In this document: piece by piece, positions 46,823 through 58,020 of the stretch
Numbering within the stretch: position 1 is the stretch's first letter
Layout: every line of letters starts with the position of its first letter
Source of the DNA: Roseateles sp.
GTDB taxonomy: Bacteria > Pseudomonadota > Gammaproteobacteria > Burkholderiales > Burkholderiaceae_C
Direction of reading: 5' to 3'
DNA: 64,000 nucleotides
NCBI GenBank assembly: GCA_016790285.1
Contig: JAEUPJ010000020.1
Span: 248,001 to 312,000 of the forward strand
Program-made: the position numbers and the translations under genes
Notes under the pieces: model-generated
What the model was told of the DNA's origin: nothing
The model's input: only the letters and a program-made list of their open reading frames with translations
Databases searched by the model: none

Positions 46823-47431
46823 ATGAAGACACTCCTGATCTCCCTCACCCTGGCCGCCGCGGCCGGCCTGGCCCAGGCCGACGCCGTCGACGCGCTGCGC
46901 GATTTCGCCCGCGACGTGAAGAGCGGCAAGGCCAACTTCACGCAGACGGTCACTTCGCCCGACGGCAAGCGCAAGAAGGTGTCCTCGGGCAGCTTCGAGT
47001 TCGAGCGGCCCAACCGCTTCCGCTTCGTCTACGCCAAGCCTTTCGAGCAGACCATCGTGGCCGACGGCGTCAAGGTCTGGATCTACGACGCCGACCTCAA
47101 CCAGGCCAGCTCCCGCAAGCTGGGCGACGCACTTGGCGCGACGCCTGCCGCACTGCTCGCCGGTGCGAATCTGGAGCGCGACTTCACGCTCAAGGCCCTG
47201 CCGACCGAGGGCGGGCTCGACTGGGTGCTGGCCGCGCCCAAGCAGGCCGAGTCCACCATCCAGTCGCTCAAGCTGGGCTTCAAGGGGCGTGACCTGGCGG
47301 CCATGGACATCGTCGACGGCTTCGGCCAGCGCTCGCGCCTGGACTTCAGCGCGGTGCAGGCCAATGTCGCAGTGCCGGCGGACCGCTTCCAGTTCAAGCT
47401 GCCGGCCGGTGCCGACCTGATCGAGCAGTGA
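46823..47431 (+). CDS. lolA: Outer-membrane lipoprotein carrier protein LolA
   Basis: A 202-residue periplasmic chaperone that takes lipoproteins from LolCDE to LolB. The signal peptide is MKTLLISLTLAAAAGLAQA. The half-barrel follows (SGKANFTQTVTSPDGKRKK, SGSFEFERPNRFRFVY, PFEQTIVADGVKVWIYDADLNQ). Length matches E. coli LolA (203). The ATG at 46823 is chosen; a GTG at 46811 overlapping the ftsK stop would add four residues. Its stop overlaps rarA by GTGA. Confidence 0.95.
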   Translation: MKTLLISLTLAAAAGLAQADAVDALRDFARDVKSGKANFTQTVTSPDGKRKKVSSGSFEFERPNRFRFVYAKPFEQTIVADGVKVWIYDADLNQASSRKLGDALGATPAALLAGANLERDFTLKALPTEGGLDWVLAAPKQAESTIQSLKLGFKGRDLAAMDIVDGFGQRSRLDFSAVQANVAVPADRFQFKLPAGADLIEQ

Positions 47432-48768
47432 GCGGGTCCCTCTTCGACGACGAGGACCCGCTGCCCGCTGCGGCGGCAGCGCCCAGCGCGCCCCTGGCCG
47501 GCATCCCGCTGGCCGAGCGGCTGCGGCCGAAGACGCTGGACGACGTCATCGGCCAGCGCCACCTGCTGGGCCCCGGCATGCCGCTGCGCGTGGCCTTCGA
47601 CGCGGGGCGCCTGCACAGCATGATCCTGTGGGGCCCGCCGGGCGTGGGCAAGACGACGCTGGCGCGACTGATGGCCGGCGCCTTCGAGGCGCAGTTCATC
47701 GCCATCTCGGCGGTGCTGGGCGGCGTGAAGGAGATCCGCGAGGCCGTCGAGCGCGCCCAGGTGGCGGCCGCCCAGGGCCGGCGCACGGTGGTGTTCGTGG
47801 ACGAAGTGCACCGCTTCAACAAGTCGCAGCAGGATGCCTTCCTGCCGCACGTGGAAGCCGGCCTCTTCACCTTCATCGGTGCGACGACCGAGAACCCGAG
47901 CTTCGAGGTCAACTCCGCGCTGCTCTCCCGTGCCACCGTGCAGGTGCTCAAGAGCCTGGACGCCGAAGAGCTGGGCCAGCTGATCGAACGCGGTGCAGCC
48001 GAACTCGGCGTGCCCGCGCCGACGCCCGAGGCCGCCCAGCGGCTCATCGGCTATGCCGACGGCGATGCGCGCCGCCTGCTCAACGCCTTCGACACGGCCG
48101 CCTCGCTGGCCCAGGGTGTGCAGATCGACGAGGCCCTGCTGGAGCGGGCGCTGGGCGAGCAGCTGCGGCGCTATGACAAGGGGGGCGACCAGTTCTACGA
48201 CGTCATCAGCGCCCTGCACAAATCGGTGCGCGGCAGCCACCCGGACGGCGCCCTGTACTGGTTCGTGCGCATGATCGACGGCGGTGTGGACGCCCGCTAC
48301 ATCGCGCGGCGCCTCGTGCGCATGGCCAGCGAGGACATCGGCCTGGCGGACCCGCGCGCGCTGCGCATCACGCTGGACGCCGCCGAGGCCTACGAGCGCC
48401 TGGGCTCGCCCGAGGGCGAGCTCGCGTTGGCCGAGGCGGTGGTGTACCTCGCCATCGCGCCCAAATCGAACGCGGTCTACAAGGCCTTCAATGAGGTCAA
48501 GGCCTTCATCAAGCAGGACGTGTCGCGGCCGGTGCCCGTGCACCTGCGCAACGCGCCCACCAAGCTCATGAAGGAGCTCGGCTACGGCAAGGCCTACCGC
48601 TACGCCCACGACGAGCCCAACGCCTATGCGGCGGGCGAGCAGTACCTGCCCGACGGCCTGGAAGGGCAGGGCTGGTACGCCCCCGTGCCGCGCGGCATGG
48701 AGGCCAAGATTGCCGAGAAACTGGCCTTCCTGCGCCAGCTGGACGATGAAGCGGCTGCTGGCGGCTAG
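47428..48768 (+). CDS. rarA: Replication-associated recombination protein A (RarA/MgsA)
   Basis: A 446-residue AAA+ ATPase acting at stalled replication forks. Walker A is GPPGVGKTT (69-77) and Walker B VVFVDEVHRFNKSQQD; FIGATTENPSFEVNSALLSR holds sensor 1 and the Arg finger. The C-terminal tetramer domain includes ISALHKSVRGSHPDGALYW. Length matches E. coli RarA (447). The start is GTG at 47428, overlapping the lolA stop (GTGA). The ftsK-lolA-rarA order is conserved across many proteobacteria. Confidence 0.96.
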   Translation: MSGSLFDDEDPLPAAAAAPSAPLAGIPLAERLRPKTLDDVIGQRHLLGPGMPLRVAFDAGRLHSMILWGPPGVGKTTLARLMAGAFEAQFIAISAVLGGVKEIREAVERAQVAAAQGRRTVVFVDEVHRFNKSQQDAFLPHVEAGLFTFIGATTENPSFEVNSALLSRATVQVLKSLDAEELGQLIERGAAELGVPAPTPEAAQRLIGYADGDARRLLNAFDTAASLAQGVQIDEALLERALGEQLRRYDKGGDQFYDVISALHKSVRGSHPDGALYWFVRMIDGGVDARYIARRLVRMASEDIGLADPRALRITLDAAEAYERLGSPEGELALAEAVVYLAIAPKSNAVYKAFNEVKAFIKQDVSRPVPVHLRNAPTKLMKELGYGKAYRYAHDEPNAYAAGEQYLPDGLEGQGWYAPVPRGMEAKIAEKLAFLRQLDDEAAAGG

Positions 48769-49651
48769 CGCGGCGCTGCTGTCGCTGTGGCTCGGTGCTG
48801 CGCAGGCGGCCGACGGTCCCACGCTCACCCGCATCCGAGACACCGGCGTCATCGTGCTGGGCTACCGGCCAGCCTCGCTGCCGTTTTCCTACCTCGATGC
48901 CCAACTGCGCCCGACCGGCTACACCGTCGAGCTGTGCGAGCGCATCGTCACCGCGGTGCGGGACCGGCTGCAGTTGCCCGACTTGGAAGTGCGCCGCGTC
49001 GAAGTGGCGTCCGCGACGCGCATGCCGCTGGTCATCAACGGCACGCTGGACCTGGAGTGCGGCATCACCACCCACACCGCCGAGCGCGCCCGCAGCCAGG
49101 CTTTTTCGCTGACCATCTTCGTGGCCGAGACGCGCCTCATGACACGCGGCGGCGAGCGCGTGCGCAGCCTCTTCGACCTGCGCGGCCTGCCCGTGGCGTC
49201 CACCATCGGCACCACGAGCATCCAGCACCTGGCCAAGGTGAACGAGCAGCAGGGGCTGGGCATCCGCATCCTGGGCGGCCTGGACGATCCCGAGGGCTTC
49301 CAGATGCTCAAGAGCGGCCGGGCCTCGGCCTTCCTGATGGACGACGTGTTGCTGCGCGCCCTGGTGGCCCAGCAAGGCCCGGGCGCGGACGACTATCGGC
49401 TGTCCGACCAGGCGCTGACCGTGGAGCCCTATGCCATCGGCCTGCGCCGGGGCGACCCGCAGTTCAAGGCGCTGGTGGACGAGGTGCTCACGGGCCTGTA
49501 CCGAAGCGGCGAGATCCACGCCATCTACCGCCGCTGGTTCGAGTCGCCGCTGCCGCCGTCCGGGCTGAACCTCAAGCTGCCGATGAGCGCGGCCTTCCGG
49601 CGCGTGATCTCCAACCCGACCGACTCACCGGACCCGGAGCGCTACCGCTAG
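48746..49651 (+). CDS. Periplasmic amino acid-type substrate-binding protein (SBP_bac_3)
   Basis: A 301-residue exported binding protein with a signal peptide (MKRLLAASAALLSLWLGAAQ). The two-lobe fold starts TLTRIRDTGVIVLGYRPASLPFSYLD, which is typical of polar amino acid binding proteins of the GltI type; ECGITTHTAERARSQAFSLT carries the ligand Arg region. It overlaps the end of rarA by 23 bases, so translation is coupled. No permease lies nearby. It may feed a transporter elsewhere or signal to the neighbouring sensor kinase. The long hairpin 49667-49770 follows. Confidence 0.88.
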   Translation: MKRLLAASAALLSLWLGAAQAADGPTLTRIRDTGVIVLGYRPASLPFSYLDAQLRPTGYTVELCERIVTAVRDRLQLPDLEVRRVEVASATRMPLVINGTLDLECGITTHTAERARSQAFSLTIFVAETRLMTRGGERVRSLFDLRGLPVASTIGTTSIQHLAKVNEQQGLGIRILGGLDDPEGFQMLKSGRASAFLMDDVLLRALVAQQGPGADDYRLSDQALTVEPYAIGLRRGDPQFKALVDEVLTGLYRSGEIHAIYRRWFESPLPPSGLNLKLPMSAAFRRVISNPTDSPDPERYR

Positions 49652-49793: not shown

Positions 49794-51126
<1,333 letters not shown>

Positions 51127-51134
<8 letters not shown>

Positions 51135-52989
51135 CAGCGTCCTCCCAGGATTGCGCAGCCAGATCGAACTCGAAGCTCATGCCGTGTTCACCGTCGGCCA
51201 GCCGCTGGGCGCGCAGCGTGCCGCCGAACTCGTGCACGATCTTCGCCGAGATGACGAGGCCCAGGCCGAGGCCTTCGCCGGCGGGCTTGGTGGTGAAGAA
51301 GGGCTCGAAGAGATGGGGCAGGTCGGCCTCGCTGACCCCCGGGCCACTGTCCTGCACCCGCACGAGCGCCCGGCGGCCGCCGTCCAGCGGCATGGCCTGC
51401 ACGCGCAGGCGCCGCACCGGTTCGTGCTGCATCGCGTCCATCGCATTGCCGAACAGGTTCACGAGCACCTGCTCCAGCCGGTTGGCTTCGGCGTGCACCT
51501 GCAGGCCCGCCGGGATGTCGACGTCGGTATGCAGGTCCATCACGCGGCTGCGGTGGTCCAGCAGCAGGAGGGCGTTGCGCACGCAGTCCAGCAGCGAGAC
51601 GGTGCCGGTGACTTCGTCGTCGGCCTTGCGCGCGAAGCTCTTGAGCTGGCGGGTGATGCGGCTCATGCGCTCGACCATGTCGTCCATGATCTGCAGGTTG
51701 GCCGCCACGGCATCCGCGCGGCCGGTTTCCAGCAGCCGGATGGAGTTGCGCGCCAGCGCGCGCAGGGCGGTGAGCGGCTGGTTGACCTCGTGCGACAGGC
51801 CGGCCGACATCTGCCCCAGCACTGCGAGCTTGCTCGCCTGCAGCAGCTCGCCTTCGGTCTGCAGGCGCTGGGCGATCTGGGTCTTGAGCGCGTCGTTGGT
51901 CTGGCGCAGCTCGGCGGTGCGGCTGTCCACCAGCTGCTCCAGCTGGCCGTGGGCCTGGCGCAGCGCGGACTGCGCCTGCGTGAGCTGGCGCAAAGCCTTG
52001 CGGCGCGACGAGAGGTACAGGCTCAGCAGGCCAATGCTGGCGCCGAAGGCCGCACCGCCCCAGGCCGCGTACTGCGCGCGCTGGTGGACCTCGGTCAGGT
52101 CCGACAGGGCGACGAGCCGCAGGCCCAGTGGCAGGATCTGGCGCTGCTGGGCGAGCATGGGCCGCGCGCGGCTCGCGCCGGGCAGCGTGAGCGAGACCTG
52201 CTGGCCTTGGTGCACCTCCAGCGTGACGGGCAGTTCCAGGTCGCGGCCGATGGCCTGCGGGTAGCGCGCGCTGGCCTCCAGGGCCTTGCGCCGCGAGGGG
52301 TCGGCATGGTCGAGCACCGCGTACTTCCAGGCCTGCACCGAGCTCATGATGACCACGTCCTGCTCGTCGGCCACGAGGATGCGTTCACCCTGCGAGCGCA
52401 GGCCCAGGTCCACCCAGGTCGCTTCCAGCGGCGCGAGGTTGAAGCGCACCACGATCACACCGTTGGACTGCCCGCCCTGTCGCAGAGGGTGCAGCAGGTA
52501 GAAGTCGGTGCTGCCCGTGCTCGGGTCGGCGGCGAAGAAGTGCACACGGCCCTGGGCCACGGCCTCGGCCAGGCGGGGCGGCGGGCTCAAGGTCTCGCTC
52601 GCAGCCAGCACCTCGCCCTGGGGCGTGGCGACGAAGATCTGGTGCGTGCCTGCCCGCACGTTCACGCGCGCCAGCATCTGGCTGGCGGCCCGCCGCGCGG
52701 TCTCGTCACCGGGCGCCTGCATCAGCGCCTGCAAGGTGGGGGCGATCGCCAGCAGGCTGGGCAGCGAGGCGTGTCGGCCCAGTTCGGCCGCCAGGTTGGA
52801 CGCGTACAGCTCCAGCCGCTCGGTGCTCAGCGCCGAGAGCTGGTCGCGGCCGGTGCGCTCACTCAGACGGTGCGCGAGCACGAAGCCGAGCACCATCAGC
52901 AGGCCGGTCAGGAAGAAGTGAAAGCCGGGGCGACCGAGCAGCCTGAACAGGCGCACGGCGCGCGGGCGGAGAGGGGCGTGCGCAACCAT
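51127..52989 (-). CDS. Sensor histidine kinase, DctB-like
   Basis: A 620-residue membrane kinase. TM1 is about residues 22-42 (FHFFLTGLLMVLGFVLAH). A large periplasmic sensor follows to a second segment near 320-335 (WGGAAFGASIGLLSLYL), resembling the double-PAS (dCACHE) fold of DctB. A coiled-coil (QSALRQAHGQLEQLVDSRTAELRQT) leads to the H-box SHEVNQPLTAL (His about 400) and the ATP site (NLFGNAMDAM, GEGLGLGLVISAKI). DctB senses C4-dicarboxylates; here the ligand may be a branched-chain amino or keto acid, judged only by the liv genes. Confidence 0.9.
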
Positions 52990-53060
52990 GTCGAAGGGCC
53001 GTGTAGTGTGCCCACGCGCGCCGCGCTTCGACAGGTCCGCTCAGGGTTTTTTCGCCCCTG

Positions 53061-53073
53061 GCGGAGAACCGCC
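53061..53073. promoter_or_regulatory. Putative activator site 1 (GCGGA-N3-CCGCC)
   Basis: GCGGAGAACCGCC is a near-palindrome (GGCGG/CCGCC with one flanking base). It lies about 155 bases upstream of the sigma-54 promoter and 32 bases before an almost identical copy. Spacing of about three helical turns is typical for tandem enhancer sites of NtrC-type regulators. Confidence 0.5.
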
Positions 53074-53092
53074 CGGCCTGCGTGCGGTTTGT

Positions 53093-53105
53093 GCGGATTT
53101 CCGCC
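53093..53105. promoter_or_regulatory. Putative activator site 2 (GCGGA-N3-CCGCC)
   Basis: GCGGATTTCCGCC repeats the arms of site 1 with a different centre (TTT for GAA). GCGGA and TCCGC also form a 12-bp dyad. It is 32 bases from site 1 and about 123 bases upstream of the -24 element. Confidence 0.5.
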
Positions 53106-53215
53106 CAGTTTTCGGTGCCCGACACTCGTGAAATCTGACCAGGCCGGCTCTCGTGGGACGGATCGAACGGTCAGCCCTTTCAACCCGTCGGTGAATACCC
53201 TCGAAACGCCCTGAT

Positions 53216-53230
53216 TGGCACGAGGGTTGC
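53216..53230 (+). promoter_or_regulatory. Sigma-54 promoter of livHMGF
   Basis: TGGCACGAGGGTTGC matches the RpoN consensus TGGCACG-N4-TTGC at every fixed base, with GG (53217-53218) and GC (53229-53230) 10 bases apart. Transcription should start near 53242, 46 bases before the livH ATG. The adjacent regulator is a sigma-54 activator. Confidence 0.85.
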
Positions 53231-53287
53231 GATTTGCACCGAGTCGCGTGGCGCATGCTGCGCCCAACGAAATCTTCTGGAGCCCTC

Positions 53288-54211
53288 ATGGAGACTCTGA
53301 TTCAACAGATCATCAACGGCCTGGTGCTGGGGAGCATGTATGCCCTCGTCGCCCTGGGCTACACGATGGTCTACGGCATCATCAACCTCATCAATTTCGC
53401 GCACGGCGAGATCCTGATGGTCGGCGCCATGGTCAGCTGGACGCTGGTCACGCTGCTGGCGGACTCCGGCCTGCCGGGCTGGCTGCTGATGGTGATCGGC
53501 CTGGCGGCCGCCATCGTCGTCTGTGCGACCTTGAACTTCGCGGTCGAGAAGATCGCCTACCGGCCGCTGCGCAATGCGCCGCGCCTGGCCCCGCTGATCA
53601 CGGCCATGGGCATGTCGCTGCTGCTGCAGGTGCTCGCCATGATCATCTGGAAGCCCAACCCCAAGCCCTTCCCGTTGCTGCTGCCCACGACGCCGTTCGA
53701 CCTGGGCGGCCCCGTGATCACGGTCACGCAGTGCCTGATCCTCGGCCTGACGGTCGCCATCCTGGCGGCGCTGATGTACCTCGTGAACTACACCAAGCTG
53801 GGCCGCGCGATGCGGGCGACCGCCGAGAACCCGCGCGTGGCGGGCCTCATGGGCGTCAAGCCCGACTTCATCATCTCCACCACCTTCGTCATCGGCGCCG
53901 CGCTCGCCGCCGTGGCCGGCCTGATGTGGGCCGCCAACTACGGCACCGTGCAGCACACCATGGGCTTCATGCCGGGCCTGAAGGCCTTCACGGCAGCCGT
54001 GCTCGGCGGCATCGGCAACCTGGCTGGCGCCGTCGTGGGTGGCGTGCTGCTGGGCCTCATCGAGGCCATCGGTGCCGGTTACCTGGGCGACCTGACCGGC
54101 GGCGTGCTGGGCAGCCACTACGCCGACATCTTCGCCTTTGTGGCCCTCATCCTGGTGCTGACGCTGCGGCCTTCCGGCCTGCTGGGTGAGCGCGTGGCCG
54201 ACCGTGCCTGA
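53288..54211 (+). CDS. livH: Branched-chain amino acid ABC transporter, permease LivH
   Basis: A 307-residue inner-membrane permease with about eight hydrophobic segments. Family motifs: INGLVLGSMYALVALGYTMV, GIINLINFAHGEILMVGA and GKAMRATAEN-like GRAMRATAENPRVAGLMGV, the EAA-type loop that meets the ATPases. Length matches E. coli LivH (308). ATG at 53288 starts the conserved METLIQQIINGLVLG. First gene of livHMGF, behind a sigma-54 promoter. No binding-protein gene (livJ/livK) is in the operon. Confidence 0.95.
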   Translation: METLIQQIINGLVLGSMYALVALGYTMVYGIINLINFAHGEILMVGAMVSWTLVTLLADSGLPGWLLMVIGLAAAIVVCATLNFAVEKIAYRPLRNAPRLAPLITAMGMSLLLQVLAMIIWKPNPKPFPLLLPTTPFDLGGPVITVTQCLILGLTVAILAALMYLVNYTKLGRAMRATAENPRVAGLMGVKPDFIISTTFVIGAALAAVAGLMWAANYGTVQHTMGFMPGLKAFTAAVLGGIGNLAGAVVGGVLLGLIEAIGAGYLGDLTGGVLGSHYADIFAFVALILVLTLRPSGLLGERVADRA

Positions 54212-54223
54212 CGGAGACACGAC

Positions 54224-55306
54224 ATGAACAGCAAGAAACTCTTCACCTTCCTCGCCGCGGCCGTCGGCCTGCTGGTGGTGCCGTTGTTCGCGCAGCAGCT
54301 GGGCAACGGCCCCGTGCGCATCATCGACCTGGCGCTGCTCTACGTGCTGCTGGCGCTGGGCCTGAACATCGTCGTGGGCTATGCCGGCCTGCTGGACCTG
54401 GGCTACGTCGCGTTCTATGCCGTGGGCGCCTACATGTTCGGCCTGATGGCCAGCCCGCACCTGAGCGAGAACTTCGAAAGCTTCCGGGCCGCCTTCCCCG
54501 ATGGCCTGCACTCGCCGATCTGGCTCGTCATTCCGGCCGGCGCGGCGCTTGCGGCACTGTTCGGCGTGCTGCTGGGCGCCCCGACGCTCAAGCTGCGCGG
54601 CGACTACCTCGCCATCGTGACGCTCGGCTTCGGCGAAATCATCCGCGTGTTCCTGAACAACCTGGAGTACCCGCTCAACATCACCAACGGCCCGCGCGGC
54701 ATTGGCCAGATCGACTCCTTCCATGTCTTCGGCGTGGACCTGGGCAAGTCGCTGCAGATCGGCGACTACACGCTGCCGTCGGTCACGCTGTACTACTACC
54801 TCTTCCTGGCACTGGTCGTGGCGGGCGTCGTGGTCTGCTACCGGCTGGAGAACTCGCGCATCGGCCGCGCCTGGATGGCCATCCGCGAGGACGAGATCGC
54901 CGCCAAGGCGATGGGCATCAACACCCGCAACCTCAAGCTGCTGGCCTTCGGCATGGGCGCCACGTTCGGCGGCGTGTCGGGCGCGATGTTCGCGAGCTTC
55001 CAGGGCTTCGTCTCGCCCGAGTCGTTCAGCCTGCAGGAGTCGGTCATGATCGTCGCCATGGTCGTGCTGGGTGGCATCGGCCACATCCCGGGTGTCATCC
55101 TGGGGGCGCTGATGCTGTCGGCCCTGCCCGAGGTGCTGCGCTACGTCGCCGGCCCGCTGCAGCAGATGACCGATGGCCGCCTGGATGCCTCCATCCTGCG
55201 CCAGCTGCTCGTGGCCCTGGCCATGATCGGCATCATGCTGGCCCGCCCGCGCGGCCTGTGGCCCGCGCCCGAGCATGGCAAGGCTGCCCCCAAGGCGGTG
55301 AAGTGA
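54224..55306 (+). CDS. livM: Branched-chain amino acid ABC transporter, permease LivM
   Basis: A 360-residue permease. It shows NIVVGYAGLLDLGYVAFYAVGAYM, LRGDYLAIVTLGFGEIIRV and NITNGPRGIGQI, all LivM hallmarks; GRAWMAIREDEIAAKAMGIN is the ATPase contact loop. It pairs with LivH to form the membrane path for Leu, Ile and Val. E. coli LivM is longer (425) because of an N-terminal extension. It starts 12 bases after livH. Confidence 0.95.
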   Translation: MNSKKLFTFLAAAVGLLVVPLFAQQLGNGPVRIIDLALLYVLLALGLNIVVGYAGLLDLGYVAFYAVGAYMFGLMASPHLSENFESFRAAFPDGLHSPIWLVIPAGAALAALFGVLLGAPTLKLRGDYLAIVTLGFGEIIRVFLNNLEYPLNITNGPRGIGQIDSFHVFGVDLGKSLQIGDYTLPSVTLYYYLFLALVVAGVVVCYRLENSRIGRAWMAIREDEIAAKAMGINTRNLKLLAFGMGATFGGVSGAMFASFQGFVSPESFSLQESVMIVAMVVLGGIGHIPGVILGALMLSALPEVLRYVAGPLQQMTDGRLDASILRQLLVALAMIGIMLARPRGLWPAPEHGKAAPKAVK

Positions 55307-55319
55307 CCAGGAGCCCCGC

Positions 55320-56105
55320 ATGAGCAACCAAGACAACATCGTTCTCAACGTCAGCGGCGCGTCCAAGCGCTTCGGCGGCGTGCAGGCCCTGTCCGACGTC
55401 GGCATCCAGATCCAGCGCGGCCAGGTCTACGGCCTGATCGGCCCCAACGGCGCCGGCAAGACGACCTTCTTCAACGTCATCACGGGCCTGTACACACCCG
55501 ACGGCGGCAGCTTCTCGCTGGGCGGCACACCCTACACGCCGCAGGCGGTGCACCAGGTGGCCAAGGCCGGCATCGCGCGCACCTTCCAGAACATCCGGCT
55601 GTTCGCTGAGATGACGGCGCTCGAGAACGTCATGGTCGGCCGCCACGTGCGCACCAAGTCCGGCCTGCTGGGCGCGGTGCTTCGCACGCCGTCGTTCAAG
55701 GCCGAGGAGGCCGCCATCAAGGCGCGTGCGCAGGAGCTGCTGGACTACGTCGGCATCGGCAAGTACGCCGAGTTCAAGGCCCGCACGCTGAGCTACGGCG
55801 ACCAGCGCCGCCTGGAGATCGCCCGCGCGCTGGCGACCGACCCGCAGCTCATCGCGCTGGACGAGCCCGCCGCCGGCATGAACGCCACCGAAAAGGTCGT
55901 GCTGCGTGAGCTGATCGACCGCATCCGCAACGACGGCCGCACCATCTTGCTCATCGAGCACGACGTGAAGCTCGTCATGGGCCTGTGCGACCGGGTGACG
56001 GTGCTGGACTACGGCAAGCAGATCGCCGAAGGCACGCCGGCCGAAGTGCAGAGCAACGAAAAGGTCATCGAGGCCTATCTGGGCGCGGGCCACAAAGCCC
56101 ACTGA
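55320..56105 (+). CDS. livG: Branched-chain amino acid ABC transporter, ATPase LivG
   Basis: A 261-residue ATPase. Walker A is GPNGAGKTT, the signature LSYGDQRRLEIARAL (an SYGD variant of LSGGQ, normal for LivG), Walker B LIALDEPAAGMN, and the switch His is in LLIEHDVKLVMG. It energises LivHM in the inner membrane together with LivF. Length matches E. coli LivG (255). It starts 13 bases after livM. Confidence 0.96.
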   Translation: MSNQDNIVLNVSGASKRFGGVQALSDVGIQIQRGQVYGLIGPNGAGKTTFFNVITGLYTPDGGSFSLGGTPYTPQAVHQVAKAGIARTFQNIRLFAEMTALENVMVGRHVRTKSGLLGAVLRTPSFKAEEAAIKARAQELLDYVGIGKYAEFKARTLSYGDQRRLEIARALATDPQLIALDEPAAGMNATEKVVLRELIDRIRNDGRTILLIEHDVKLVMGLCDRVTVLDYGKQIAEGTPAEVQSNEKVIEAYLGAGHKAH

Positions 56106-56121: not shown

Positions 56122-56841
56122 ATGACAGCAAAGCAGACCCTGCTCAAGGTCAGCGGCCTGAAGGTCGCTTACGGCGGCATCCAGGCCGTGAAGGGCGTGA
56201 GTTTCGAAGTGCGCGAGGGCGAGCTCGTGTCCCTGATCGGCGCCAACGGTGCCGGCAAGACGACGACGCTCAAGGCCGTCACCGGCCTGCAGCCCATCGC
56301 CTCGGGCGATGTGAGCTACCTCGGCGAGCCCATCAAGGGCAAGGGTGCCTGGGACCTGGCCAAGAAGGGCCTCGTGATGGTGCCCGAAGGCCGCGGCACC
56401 TTCACGCGCATGACCATCATCGAGAACCTGCAGATGGGCGCCTACAACCGCAACGACGGTGAGATCCAGGCGGACATGGACAAGGTCTTCGGCCTCTTCC
56501 CGCGCCTGAAGGAGCGCGCCAAGCAGCTGGCCGGCACGATGTCCGGCGGTGAGCAGCAGATGCTCGCCATGGGCCGCGCGCTGATGGCGCGCCCCAAGGT
56601 GCTGCTGCTGGACGAGCCGTCGATGGGCCTGTCGCCCATCATGGTGGACAAGATCTTCGAGGTCGTGAACGACATCCACCAGCAGGGCGTCACCATCCTG
56701 CTCGTCGAGCAGAACGCCAGCCGCGCGCTGCAGCTGGCCAACCGCGGCTACGTGATGGAGTCGGGCGAGGTCACGATGGAAGGCCAGGGCCAGGCGCTGC
56801 TCAACGACCCGAAGGTGCGCGCCGCCTACTTGGGCGAGTAG
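56122..56841 (+). CDS. livF: Branched-chain amino acid ABC transporter, ATPase LivF
   Basis: A 239-residue ATPase. Walker A is GANGAGKTT, the signature MSGGEQQMLAMGRAL and Walker B VLLLDEPSMGLSP; VPEGRGTFTRMTI is the LivF-specific loop. Length matches E. coli LivF (237). It is the last gene of the operon, followed by a set of repeat hairpins (56857-56921) and a strong terminator. Confidence 0.96.
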   Translation: MTAKQTLLKVSGLKVAYGGIQAVKGVSFEVREGELVSLIGANGAGKTTTLKAVTGLQPIASGDVSYLGEPIKGKGAWDLAKKGLVMVPEGRGTFTRMTIIENLQMGAYNRNDGEIQADMDKVFGLFPRLKERAKQLAGTMSGGEQQMLAMGRALMARPKVLLLDEPSMGLSPIMVDKIFEVVNDIHQQGVTILLVEQNASRALQLANRGYVMESGEVTMEGQGQALLNDPKVRAAYLGE

Positions 56842-56964: not shown

Positions 56965-58020
56965 TCATGAGGTTCGCACGAGCTTTGAACGAGCCCAATC
57001 GTCCGCAACGCGGGCGGGCGTGGAGTCGGCGGTCTGCACGCGCTGCAGCAGCTCTTCCACGCGCTCGGCGATCTTGCTGACTTCGGCCATCACGGCCGTC
57101 TCTTCGCCTTCGCCGCGGTATTCGCGGGCGACGCTGATGATGCCGCCGGCGTTCACCAGGTAGTCGGGCAGGTAGCAGATGCCGCGGCGCTGGAGAGCGT
57201 CGCCGTCGGCCGGCGTGGCGAGTTGGTTGTTGGCGGCACCCGCAATCAGCTTGGCGCGCAGCGTGGGCACGGTGCGCTCGTTCAGGGAGGCGCCCAGGGC
57301 GCAGGGGGCGAGCACGTCGACCTCGGTGGCCAGGATGTCGGCCACGCTCACCGCGGTGGCGCCGAGTTGCGCCACGGCGCGCTCAACCTTGGCGGCGTCA
57401 ACATCCGCCACGACGAGCTTGGCGCCCGCCTTGTGCAGGAATTCGGCCAGGTGCCAGCCCACGGCGCCCAGCCCCTGCAGGGCGACGCGCACGCCTTCCA
57501 GCGACGATCGGCCCAGCACGATGCGCGCACCTGCCTGGATGGAGACGAACACGCCCCAGGCCGTCTTGGGGCTCGGGTCGCCACCGAAGGCGCCTTCGCG
57601 CGGGATGCCGCTCACGAAGGGCGTCACGGCCTGCATGCCGCGCATGTCGGCGGTAGTGGTGCCGACGTCCTCGGCGGTGATGTAGGCGCCCTGCAGCGAC
57701 TGCACGGCGCGGCCGAAGGCGGCGAACAGGGCAGGGCGGTCGAACGTGCCCTCGGGCTTCAGGATGACGGCCTTGCCGCCGCCGAAGGGCAGGTCGGCCA
57801 GTGCGTTCTTCAGGCTCATGCCTTGCGACAGGCGCAGCGCGTCGTTCAGCGCGGCGAGTTCGGAGTCGTAGTGCCAGAAGCGGCAGCCGCCGAAAGCGGG
57901 GCCCCGGCTCGTGCTGTGCACGGCGAGGATGGCCTTCAGGCCGGTGGCGGGGTCGGTGGCGAGCAGCACGCGCTCATGGGGTGCTTGCTCGGGCAGGCCG
58001 AAGATCGAGGTCGGGGTCAT
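56965..58020 (-). CDS. Leucine dehydrogenase-like enzyme (Glu/Leu/Phe/Val dehydrogenase family)
   Basis: A 351-residue amino acid dehydrogenase. The catalytic lysines are K71 (MSLKNALADLPFGGGK) and K83, 12 apart as in Bacillus leucine dehydrogenase; GLGAVGWHLAEFLHKAG is the NAD site. EDVGTTTADM and YLPDYLVNAGGIIS are family motifs. It would deaminate Leu, Val or Ile to keto acids with NAD+. Length matches leucine dehydrogenases (about 360). It is convergent with livF and downstream of the dioxygenase gene, which fits branched-chain amino acid catabolism. Confidence 0.88.
   Translation of the reverse strand: MTPTSIFGLPEQAPHERVLLATDPATGLKAILAVHSTSRGPAFGGCRFWHYDSELAALNDALRLSQGMSLKNALADLPFGGGKAVILKPEGTFDRPALFAAFGRAVQSLQGAYITAEDVGTTTADMRGMQAVTPFVSGIPREGAFGGDPSPKTAWGVFVSIQAGARIVLGRSSLEGVRVALQGLGAVGWHLAEFLHKAGAKLVVADVDAAKVERAVAQLGATAVSVADILATEVDVLAPCALGASLNERTVPTLRAKLIAGAANNQLATPADGDALQRRGICYLPDYLVNAGGIISVAREYRGEGEETAVMAEVSKIAERVEELLQRVQTADSTPARVADDWARSKLVRTS

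Follow-up and report, generated by a model that had tools for sequence, protein, structure and literature searches.

A candidate sigma-54 control region between a DctB/DctD-like pair and livHMGF in Roseateles

In Pseudomonas, according to excerpts of the papers, two sites resembling TTCGG-N4-CCGAA lie above the -12/-24 promoter of aatJ, at which the AauSR pair acts (PMC7962211); AauSR controls ABC uptake of glutamate and aspartate and MifSR controls uptake of 2-oxoglutarate (PMC7962211, PMC8694187), and the sensors AauS, DctB and MifS fall into one dCache clade, a grouping with 29 of 100 bootstraps (PMC8694187). Excerpts of two further papers link DctBD to the transport of aspartate and dicarboxylates, the amino acid transport category not being over-represented (PMC3162934), and tabulate an NtrC/sigma-54-dependent binding protein for Leu/Ile/Val/Thr/Ala in B. 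cenocepacia (PMC5491218). The term "branched-chain" does not occur in the excerpts of PMC12316311 and PMC5979394, and among the matches listed for the open-access PMC literature (titles and the starts of abstracts) there is no description of a DctBD-like pair that controls liv genes.

The locus considered here lies in a window of 64,000 nucleotides (contig JAEUPJ010000020.1, positions 248,001 to 312,000), which is part of a 5.88 Mb draft genome of Roseateles sp.; all coordinates are those of this window, and numbers with L, G or C are our own handles. An earlier note, written from the window alone, had proposed a sigma-54 switch in front of livHMGF next to its probable activator pair.

The pair, its neighbouring binding protein and the transporter

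The minus strand carries a sensor histidine kinase gene (51127-52989) that overlaps by 8 bp the gene of a response regulator, the probable activator (49794-51134), and the divergent operon is the DctB/DctD-like kinase and sigma-54 activator that the earlier note had described. The regulator has a receiver, a sigma-54 AAA+ domain and a Fis-type HTH (Pfam PF00072, PF00158, PF25601, PF02954) and the kinase has a DctB-fold dCache sensor, both being features of the DctBD/AauSR/MifSR group. The receiver resembles that of DctD (1qkk, E 4.9e-33). A PDB comparison re-examined Foldseek's own matches, and that other folds are missing from it carries no information. The H box of the kinase (SHEVNQP) and the Asp box of the regulator are both present, and 31 of 71 columns of the regulator C-terminus, which includes the HTH, are invariant in 19 sequences, TLYDKL among them. 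The AAA+ loop that contacts sigma-54 has the consensus GAFTGA; it reads GSFTSA here and in most relatives and GAFTSA in some, with the threonine retained. A search of the genome at E 1e-90 or better yields a single further regulator, 42% identical to this one. The DctB sensor motif WRPYF/FRDYF has a role in carboxylate binding; it is missing from the kinase, where the alignment shows a gap of about 10 residues at the motif or directly ahead of it, and the RxYF motif of DctB is missing from all 29 aligned sensor sequences. Near the start of the kinase gene TAGTGTGCCC (53005-53014) is exact in 13 of 20 aligned sequences, AGTkTGCCy being found in 20/20, and it is possibly part of a minus-strand kinase promoter.

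Tail to tail with the regulator gene stands the gene of an orphan family-3 solute-binding protein of the glutamate/aspartate type (48746-49651, plus strand; PF00497, on a longer frame from 48626). This arrangement is kept in 18/18 loci (L032-L049), among them five (L045-L049) whose examined stretch showed no rarA, and on this gene order the binding protein appears to belong to the module as a conserved member. Its closest solved structures are 2ia4/2vha (E 1.2e-64), which we take to be a glutamate/aspartate-binding protein, and its two nearest paralogues in the genome are 38-39% identical, one of them (L114) standing with two permease genes. No sigma-54 match was seen in the 700 bp upstream of the binding-protein gene in 11/11 loci scanned, and a dyad pair of the kind described below was rejected there, the best single dyad words in these 11 loci having 3-6 mismatches.

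On the other side of the intergenic region, four plus-strand genes follow in the order livH (permease, 53288-54211, PF02653), livM (permease, 54224-55306, PF02653), livG (ATPase, 55320-56105, PF00005 and PF12399) and livF (ATPase, 56122-56841, PF00005), the two BPD_transp_2 permeases and two ATPases that characterise LivHMGF of the HAAT type. The NCBIfam models LivH, LivM, LivG and LivF are the best-scoring ones, yet all four curated cut-offs are missed (237.6 bits against 379, 261.9 against 366, 290.8 against 362 and 263.7 against 441 respectively), and because of these scores a branched-chain substrate is no more than likely. The liv operon has no Peripla_BP_6 binding protein; the genome has 17 matches to this family, 16 of them above the cut-off, the nearest being on the same contig at a distance of about 102 kb. 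Convergent with livF is a gene of the Glu/Leu/Phe/Val dehydrogenase type (about 56965-57985, minus strand), and of the 12 named loci with a livF, five have such a gene beside it.

The control region before livH

The kinase sensor region was found in 18 of the 19 other genus genomes searched, the sole miss being a genome that is 83% complete, and outside the genus it was matched at 52-54% identity in 2 of 40 genomes (G026, G032). Named records with close relatives of the kinase are, where named to genus, mostly Roseateles or Pelomonas, and one metagenome record is labelled Methylotenera; strains of Roseateles puraquae (L044) and R. saccharophilus (L043) are among the carriers of the locus. Altogether 39 kinase loci were examined (L002-L022 and L032-L049), of which 36 have a livH match (none in L016, L035 and L048), and these 36 collapse to 24 distinct intergenic regions, 18 from the genus and six from other genera (L021, L022, L045, L046, L047 and L049, with kinases 52-63% identical to that of the window).

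The -24/-12 promoter of livH, TGGCACGAGGGTTGC, lies on the plus strand at 53216-53230, 72 bp before the livH start codon, and has the boxes TGGCAyr-N4-TTGC; the earlier note had claimed a full match to the RpoN consensus at this position, and it is indeed there with 0 mismatches. Above it are two dyads, the downstream one GTGCGGATTTCCGCCC (53091-53106), a probable activator site, and the upstream one TGGCGGAGAACCGCCC (53059-53074), 32 bp above it. They had been described as two 13-bp dyads GCGGA-N3-CCGCC, and these strings do begin at 53061 and 53093 as claimed, but the natural units are 16-mers and the upstream one is the weaker. With one mismatch allowed, 3.07 occurrences of the promoter pattern are expected by chance within the window and one was found, without mismatch, and GCGGA-N3-CCGCC is expected 1.55 times and was found three times, a count reached by 24 of 100 shuffles; since these counts match the shuffled expectation, the evidence of the single sequence is not above chance. 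Comparison with relatives lifts promoter and dyads far above it.

A pattern slightly wider than the one given above, TGGCA[CT][AG]-N4-[TA]TGC, is present in 24/24 intergenic regions at 65-97 bp from livH, and the 18 genus members all agree in 13 of the 15 columns of the box. The downstream dyad is invariant in 16/16 columns of the same 18, as against 106 of 298 for the intergenic region overall, and the longest invariant run of the region (23 bp, 53084-53106; permutation p 5e-5) spans it entirely. The upstream dyad, which was found by its offset from the downstream one when the 24 regions were compared, is invariant in 8/16 columns, shows 4-6 mismatches to the 16-bp consensus in genus members and has broken arms in several relatives, for example TGGCGAAGAACCGCCT in L012. 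In the distant lineages the dyads were placed by direct scanning of the 24 regions, and a site equivalent to the downstream dyad is present in the six regions from other genera. The spacing from dyad to dyad is 32 bp in 22 of the 24 regions and 33 bp in the other two (L019, L020). Conservation in relatives had been named beforehand as a point on which the proposal could be refuted, and the dyads are kept in 24/24 regions with this near-fixed mutual spacing. Upstream of the dyad the invariant run of the genus extends into a direct repeat, GTGCGGTTT GTGCGGATT (53082-53099), possibly an extra half-site, which was not seen in L021 or L022.

A further conserved element, TCGGTGAATACCC (53188-53200), lies 28 bp above the -24 box and, in six genus members in which this gap is 11 bp longer, 39 bp above it. 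In the form TCGGTG-N2-TACCC it is found in 24/24 kinase-type intergenic regions; it was not found by a similar pattern in the further family loci L089, L092, L102 and L105, L089 reading TCAGTGAATACCC. The copy in the window is the sole exact one in the genome. As an element of a regulon it was rejected, with no second exact copy and six copies with one mismatch against two in all for a reversed control, and as an IHF site it gave no good match when compared by eye with the consensus. Look-alikes in reverse orientation, GGGTAwnCACC, occur before livH in a few loci that lack the kinase.

The distance from the start of the downstream dyad to the promoter box varies in steps. It is 125 or 126 bp in 11 genus regions and 136 or 137 bp in the other seven, 93 (L021), 94 (L022, L049), 113 (L047) and 114 (L045, L046) in the other lineages and, by subtraction, 135 (L089), 104 (L102), 168 (L105) and 80 (L092) in the further family loci. 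The values 80, 93-94, 104, 113-114, 125-126, 135-137 and 168 fall near one helical phase, that of L092 lying about 3 bp off it. Circular statistics on 14 entries, which are not all independent, gave a best R of 0.86 (p 5e-5, the lowest value that 20,000 random sets allow) with the best period taken between 10.2 and 10.8 and random integers of 80-169 as the null; without L092 R is 0.91, and with one entry per distance class (n=7) p is 0.004. In L020 the additional helical turn is placed elsewhere than in the gap between the 53188 element and the promoter.

livH loci with and without the kinase

A livH search over 150 family genomes gave matches in 125 at the set limit, and thirty loci were fetched, each being the best match of one of the 30 best genomes with second copies left out; one of them (L090) begins at a contig end and was therefore dropped. 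The 29 loci that remain divide into 7 that include a kinase homologue and 22 that lack one. The dyad pair, defined as summed mismatches of at most 8 and a spacing of 31-33 within the last 330 bp, is present in 7/7 loci with the kinase and 0/22 without it (Fisher p 6e-7, with the score limit and the consensus fixed after part of the sequences had been seen, and with only four of the seven kinase loci, L089, L092, L102 and L105, independent of the sequences from which the consensus was drawn). The sigma-54 pattern is found in 6/7 and 0/22 respectively, the exception being L105, which reads TGGCACGGCATGTGC. The dyads of L092 are poor, with 8 mismatches in total, and the nearest locus without the kinase, L087, scores 9 with one near-perfect dyad, GTGCGGAATCCCGCAC. 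Across these 29 loci the dyad pair marks only those with the kinase, which supports the proposal of a sigma-54 switch before livHMGF served by the adjacent pair.

The loci without the kinase have features of their own. Fifteen of the 22 have, in the 250 bp preceding livH, a CCTAnAAT box, which all seven kinase loci lack. In five of six that were inspected in detail (L085, L087, L091, L093, L094) the ORF before livH is of one shared type, which we take to be rarA/mgsA, the sixth (L088) having a different gene there; the window keeps its rarA/mgsA gene at 47428-48768, separated from livH by the genes of the binding protein, the regulator and the kinase. From this we infer that the module is probably a later arrival between rarA and livH, the promoter being replaced. 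One genome of another genus (G026) carries both forms, a livH after rarA with no dyad pair under the limit (L087) and a livH opposite the kinase with the pair present (L021). In seven loci without the kinase (L085, L087, L088, L098, L104, L106, L110) a -10-like box is seen by eye before livH, and after it a GC-rich hairpin with a T run that resembles an attenuator or a small RNA; no Rfam family reached its gathering score upstream of livH in 8 loci, seven of them without the kinase and L085, L087 and L088 among these. A plasmid search with the intergenic region gave no match.

Within the genome the strict sigma-54 pattern TGGCAYRNNNNTTGC has 21 matches, against 3 for a reversed control, and the dyad pair accompanies only one of the 21, that of livH, with a score of 4 where the others score 10-15. 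A regulon shared with a livK-type binding protein was rejected, since of the 17/17 Peripla_BP_6 loci scanned a strict sigma-54 box is found only in L058, which has no dyad word and which presumably encodes a urea-binding protein linked to NtrC; in L059, L063 and L066 there are looser sigma-54-like and dyad-like words, but over 300 bp separate them or their order is wrong. Further targets of the regulator gained no support either, as the dyad pattern with up to one mismatch has 7 genome matches against 6 for the reversed control; two of the seven are the livH site on its two strands, and L072, the one inspected by eye of the other five, has no obvious promoter setting.

Readings of the region and comparison with known systems

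Because of the conservation, the helical steps, the uniqueness in the genome and the co-occurrence with the kinase, the DctBD-like pair most likely activates livHMGF via sigma-54, and we give a probability of about 0.83 to the reading that 53059-53230 is the complete sigma-54 control region of livHMGF and is worked by the divergent pair. The domains of the regulator, the H and Asp boxes, the conserved HTH end, the sigma-54 genes of the genome and the likeness of the sites to those of AauR speak for it too; against it stand the low sequence conservation of the upstream dyad in the genus, the GSFTSA loop, the promoter of L105, the poor dyads and off-phase distance of L092, the late choice of score limit and consensus, and the near-perfect dyad of L087. 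In the proposed mechanism the membrane kinase would sense a periplasmic signal and phosphorylate the regulator, dimers of which would occupy the two dyads, these being about three helical turns apart and therefore on the same face of the DNA; the regulator would then assemble its AAA+ ring, contact sigma-54 polymerase at 53216-53230 through a DNA loop and open the livH promoter. The promoter is predicted to depend on RpoN, and the genome has two genes with a sigma-54 DNA-binding domain (G000, C33:10804-11262, L141, and C39:98579-99052, L142).

As for the signal, a role of the orphan binding protein as co-sensor would be a guess. It may be, although we consider it rather unlikely, that the DctB/AauS-type kinase reads the ligand-loaded Glu/Asp-type binding protein (48746-49651) and not a carboxylate directly, in which case extracellular acidic amino acids would switch on an importer of the branched-chain type and the locus would be an aat-like one whose AatQMP has been replaced by LivHMGF under a captured sigma-54 promoter. 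Since the orphan protein is conserved, it may be asked whether DctB-type kinases sense with the help of a binding protein.

It would seem improbable that the sigma-54 promoter is real but driven mainly by NtrC in response to nitrogen status, with the dyads serving autoregulation of kinase and regulator. The dyads do lie between divergent genes and so also 70-117 bp above the kinase start, and the presumed urea-binding protein linked to NtrC has a strict sigma-54 site in the genome; NtrC-dependent liv components are tabulated in the excerpt from B. cenocepacia (PMC5491218). Against this, the dyads hold helical phase to the livH promoter, and in the 29 family loci the dyad pair and the livH sigma-54 promoter go together. 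In an informal comparison the dyad is also unlike the consensus of the NtrC site.

It is highly improbable that the dyads belong to some third-party protein which happens to accompany the module: the element at 53188-53200 suggests that other proteins may act at the region, but binding protein, regulator, kinase and livH are consecutive, with no room for another regulator gene, in the 18 loci L032-L049 where these are covered, and the core CGG-N4-CCG is also that of the sites of AauR, which falls into the same regulator group. A further possibility is that the motifs arose by chance in GC-rich DNA and that livHMGF has a sigma-70 promoter, like its counterparts in loci that lack the kinase. This would suit the chance-level counts in the window and the CCTAnAAT box of 15/22 such loci, yet it is scarcely tenable given the conservation over 24 regions, the 23-bp invariant run (p 5e-5), the spacing, the phase, the co-occurrence with the kinase and the absence of that box from the seven kinase loci of the same set.

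Control of livHMGF by the divergent pair would offer a testable dedicated circuit for this type of importer, no dedicated sigma-54 pair for LivHMGF being described among the literature matches listed. It points to a natural rewiring, in which a sigma-54 enhancer promoter stands before the liv operon where the kinase is present and a sigma-70-like box in many relatives that lack it, and the set of distances, varying in helical steps, lends itself to testing on natural variants whether enhancer-binding proteins loop the DNA. The earlier note's description of the locus holds, although it had missed the binding-protein gene of the module (48746-49651) and the second conserved element (53188-53200). 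The view that control of a branched-chain amino acid transporter would be a different wiring stands when set against DctBD proper and needs qualifying more widely, as in the excerpts cited at the outset AauSR and MifSR already control Glu/Asp ABC and 2-oxoglutarate uptake. The proposal is better founded than its author could have known, yet less exotic than stated.

Among the known systems, AauSR with aatJ-aatQMP likewise has a DctB-clade dCache kinase, a sigma-54 regulator and two CGG-N4-CCG sites above the -24/-12 promoter of an ABC amino-acid importer, and the present module shares with it a Glu/Asp-type binding protein. The importer here is however LivHMGF of the HAAT type and not AatQMP; the sites are GTGCGG-N4-CCGCCC and TGGCGG-N4-CCGCCC and not TTCGG-N4-CCGAA, the core CGG-N4-CCG being common to both; and the binding protein is without permeases of its own and without a visible sigma-54 site before its gene. 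Unlike DctB/DctD, the pair adjoins no C4-dicarboxylate transporter gene, its neighbours being livHMGF and the family-3 binding protein, and RxYF is absent from its sensor as from the other aligned ones. MifS/MifR belongs to the same regulator group, and in other genus members there are paralogous pairs, presumably Mif, that adjoin a permease gene, which we take to be of the MHS carboxylate type; the regulators of these pairs are 52-55% identical to that of the window over the part compared (L024-L027, L029-L031). NtrC/sigma-54 in B. cenocepacia, as far as the excerpt goes, also governs expression of an amino-acid binding protein, but as a global nitrogen regulator, whereas the pair here is adjacent and apparently dedicated. 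Relatives of the pair control the uptake of dicarboxylates and glutamate, and the parts of this locus are therefore familiar, whereas their combination is not.
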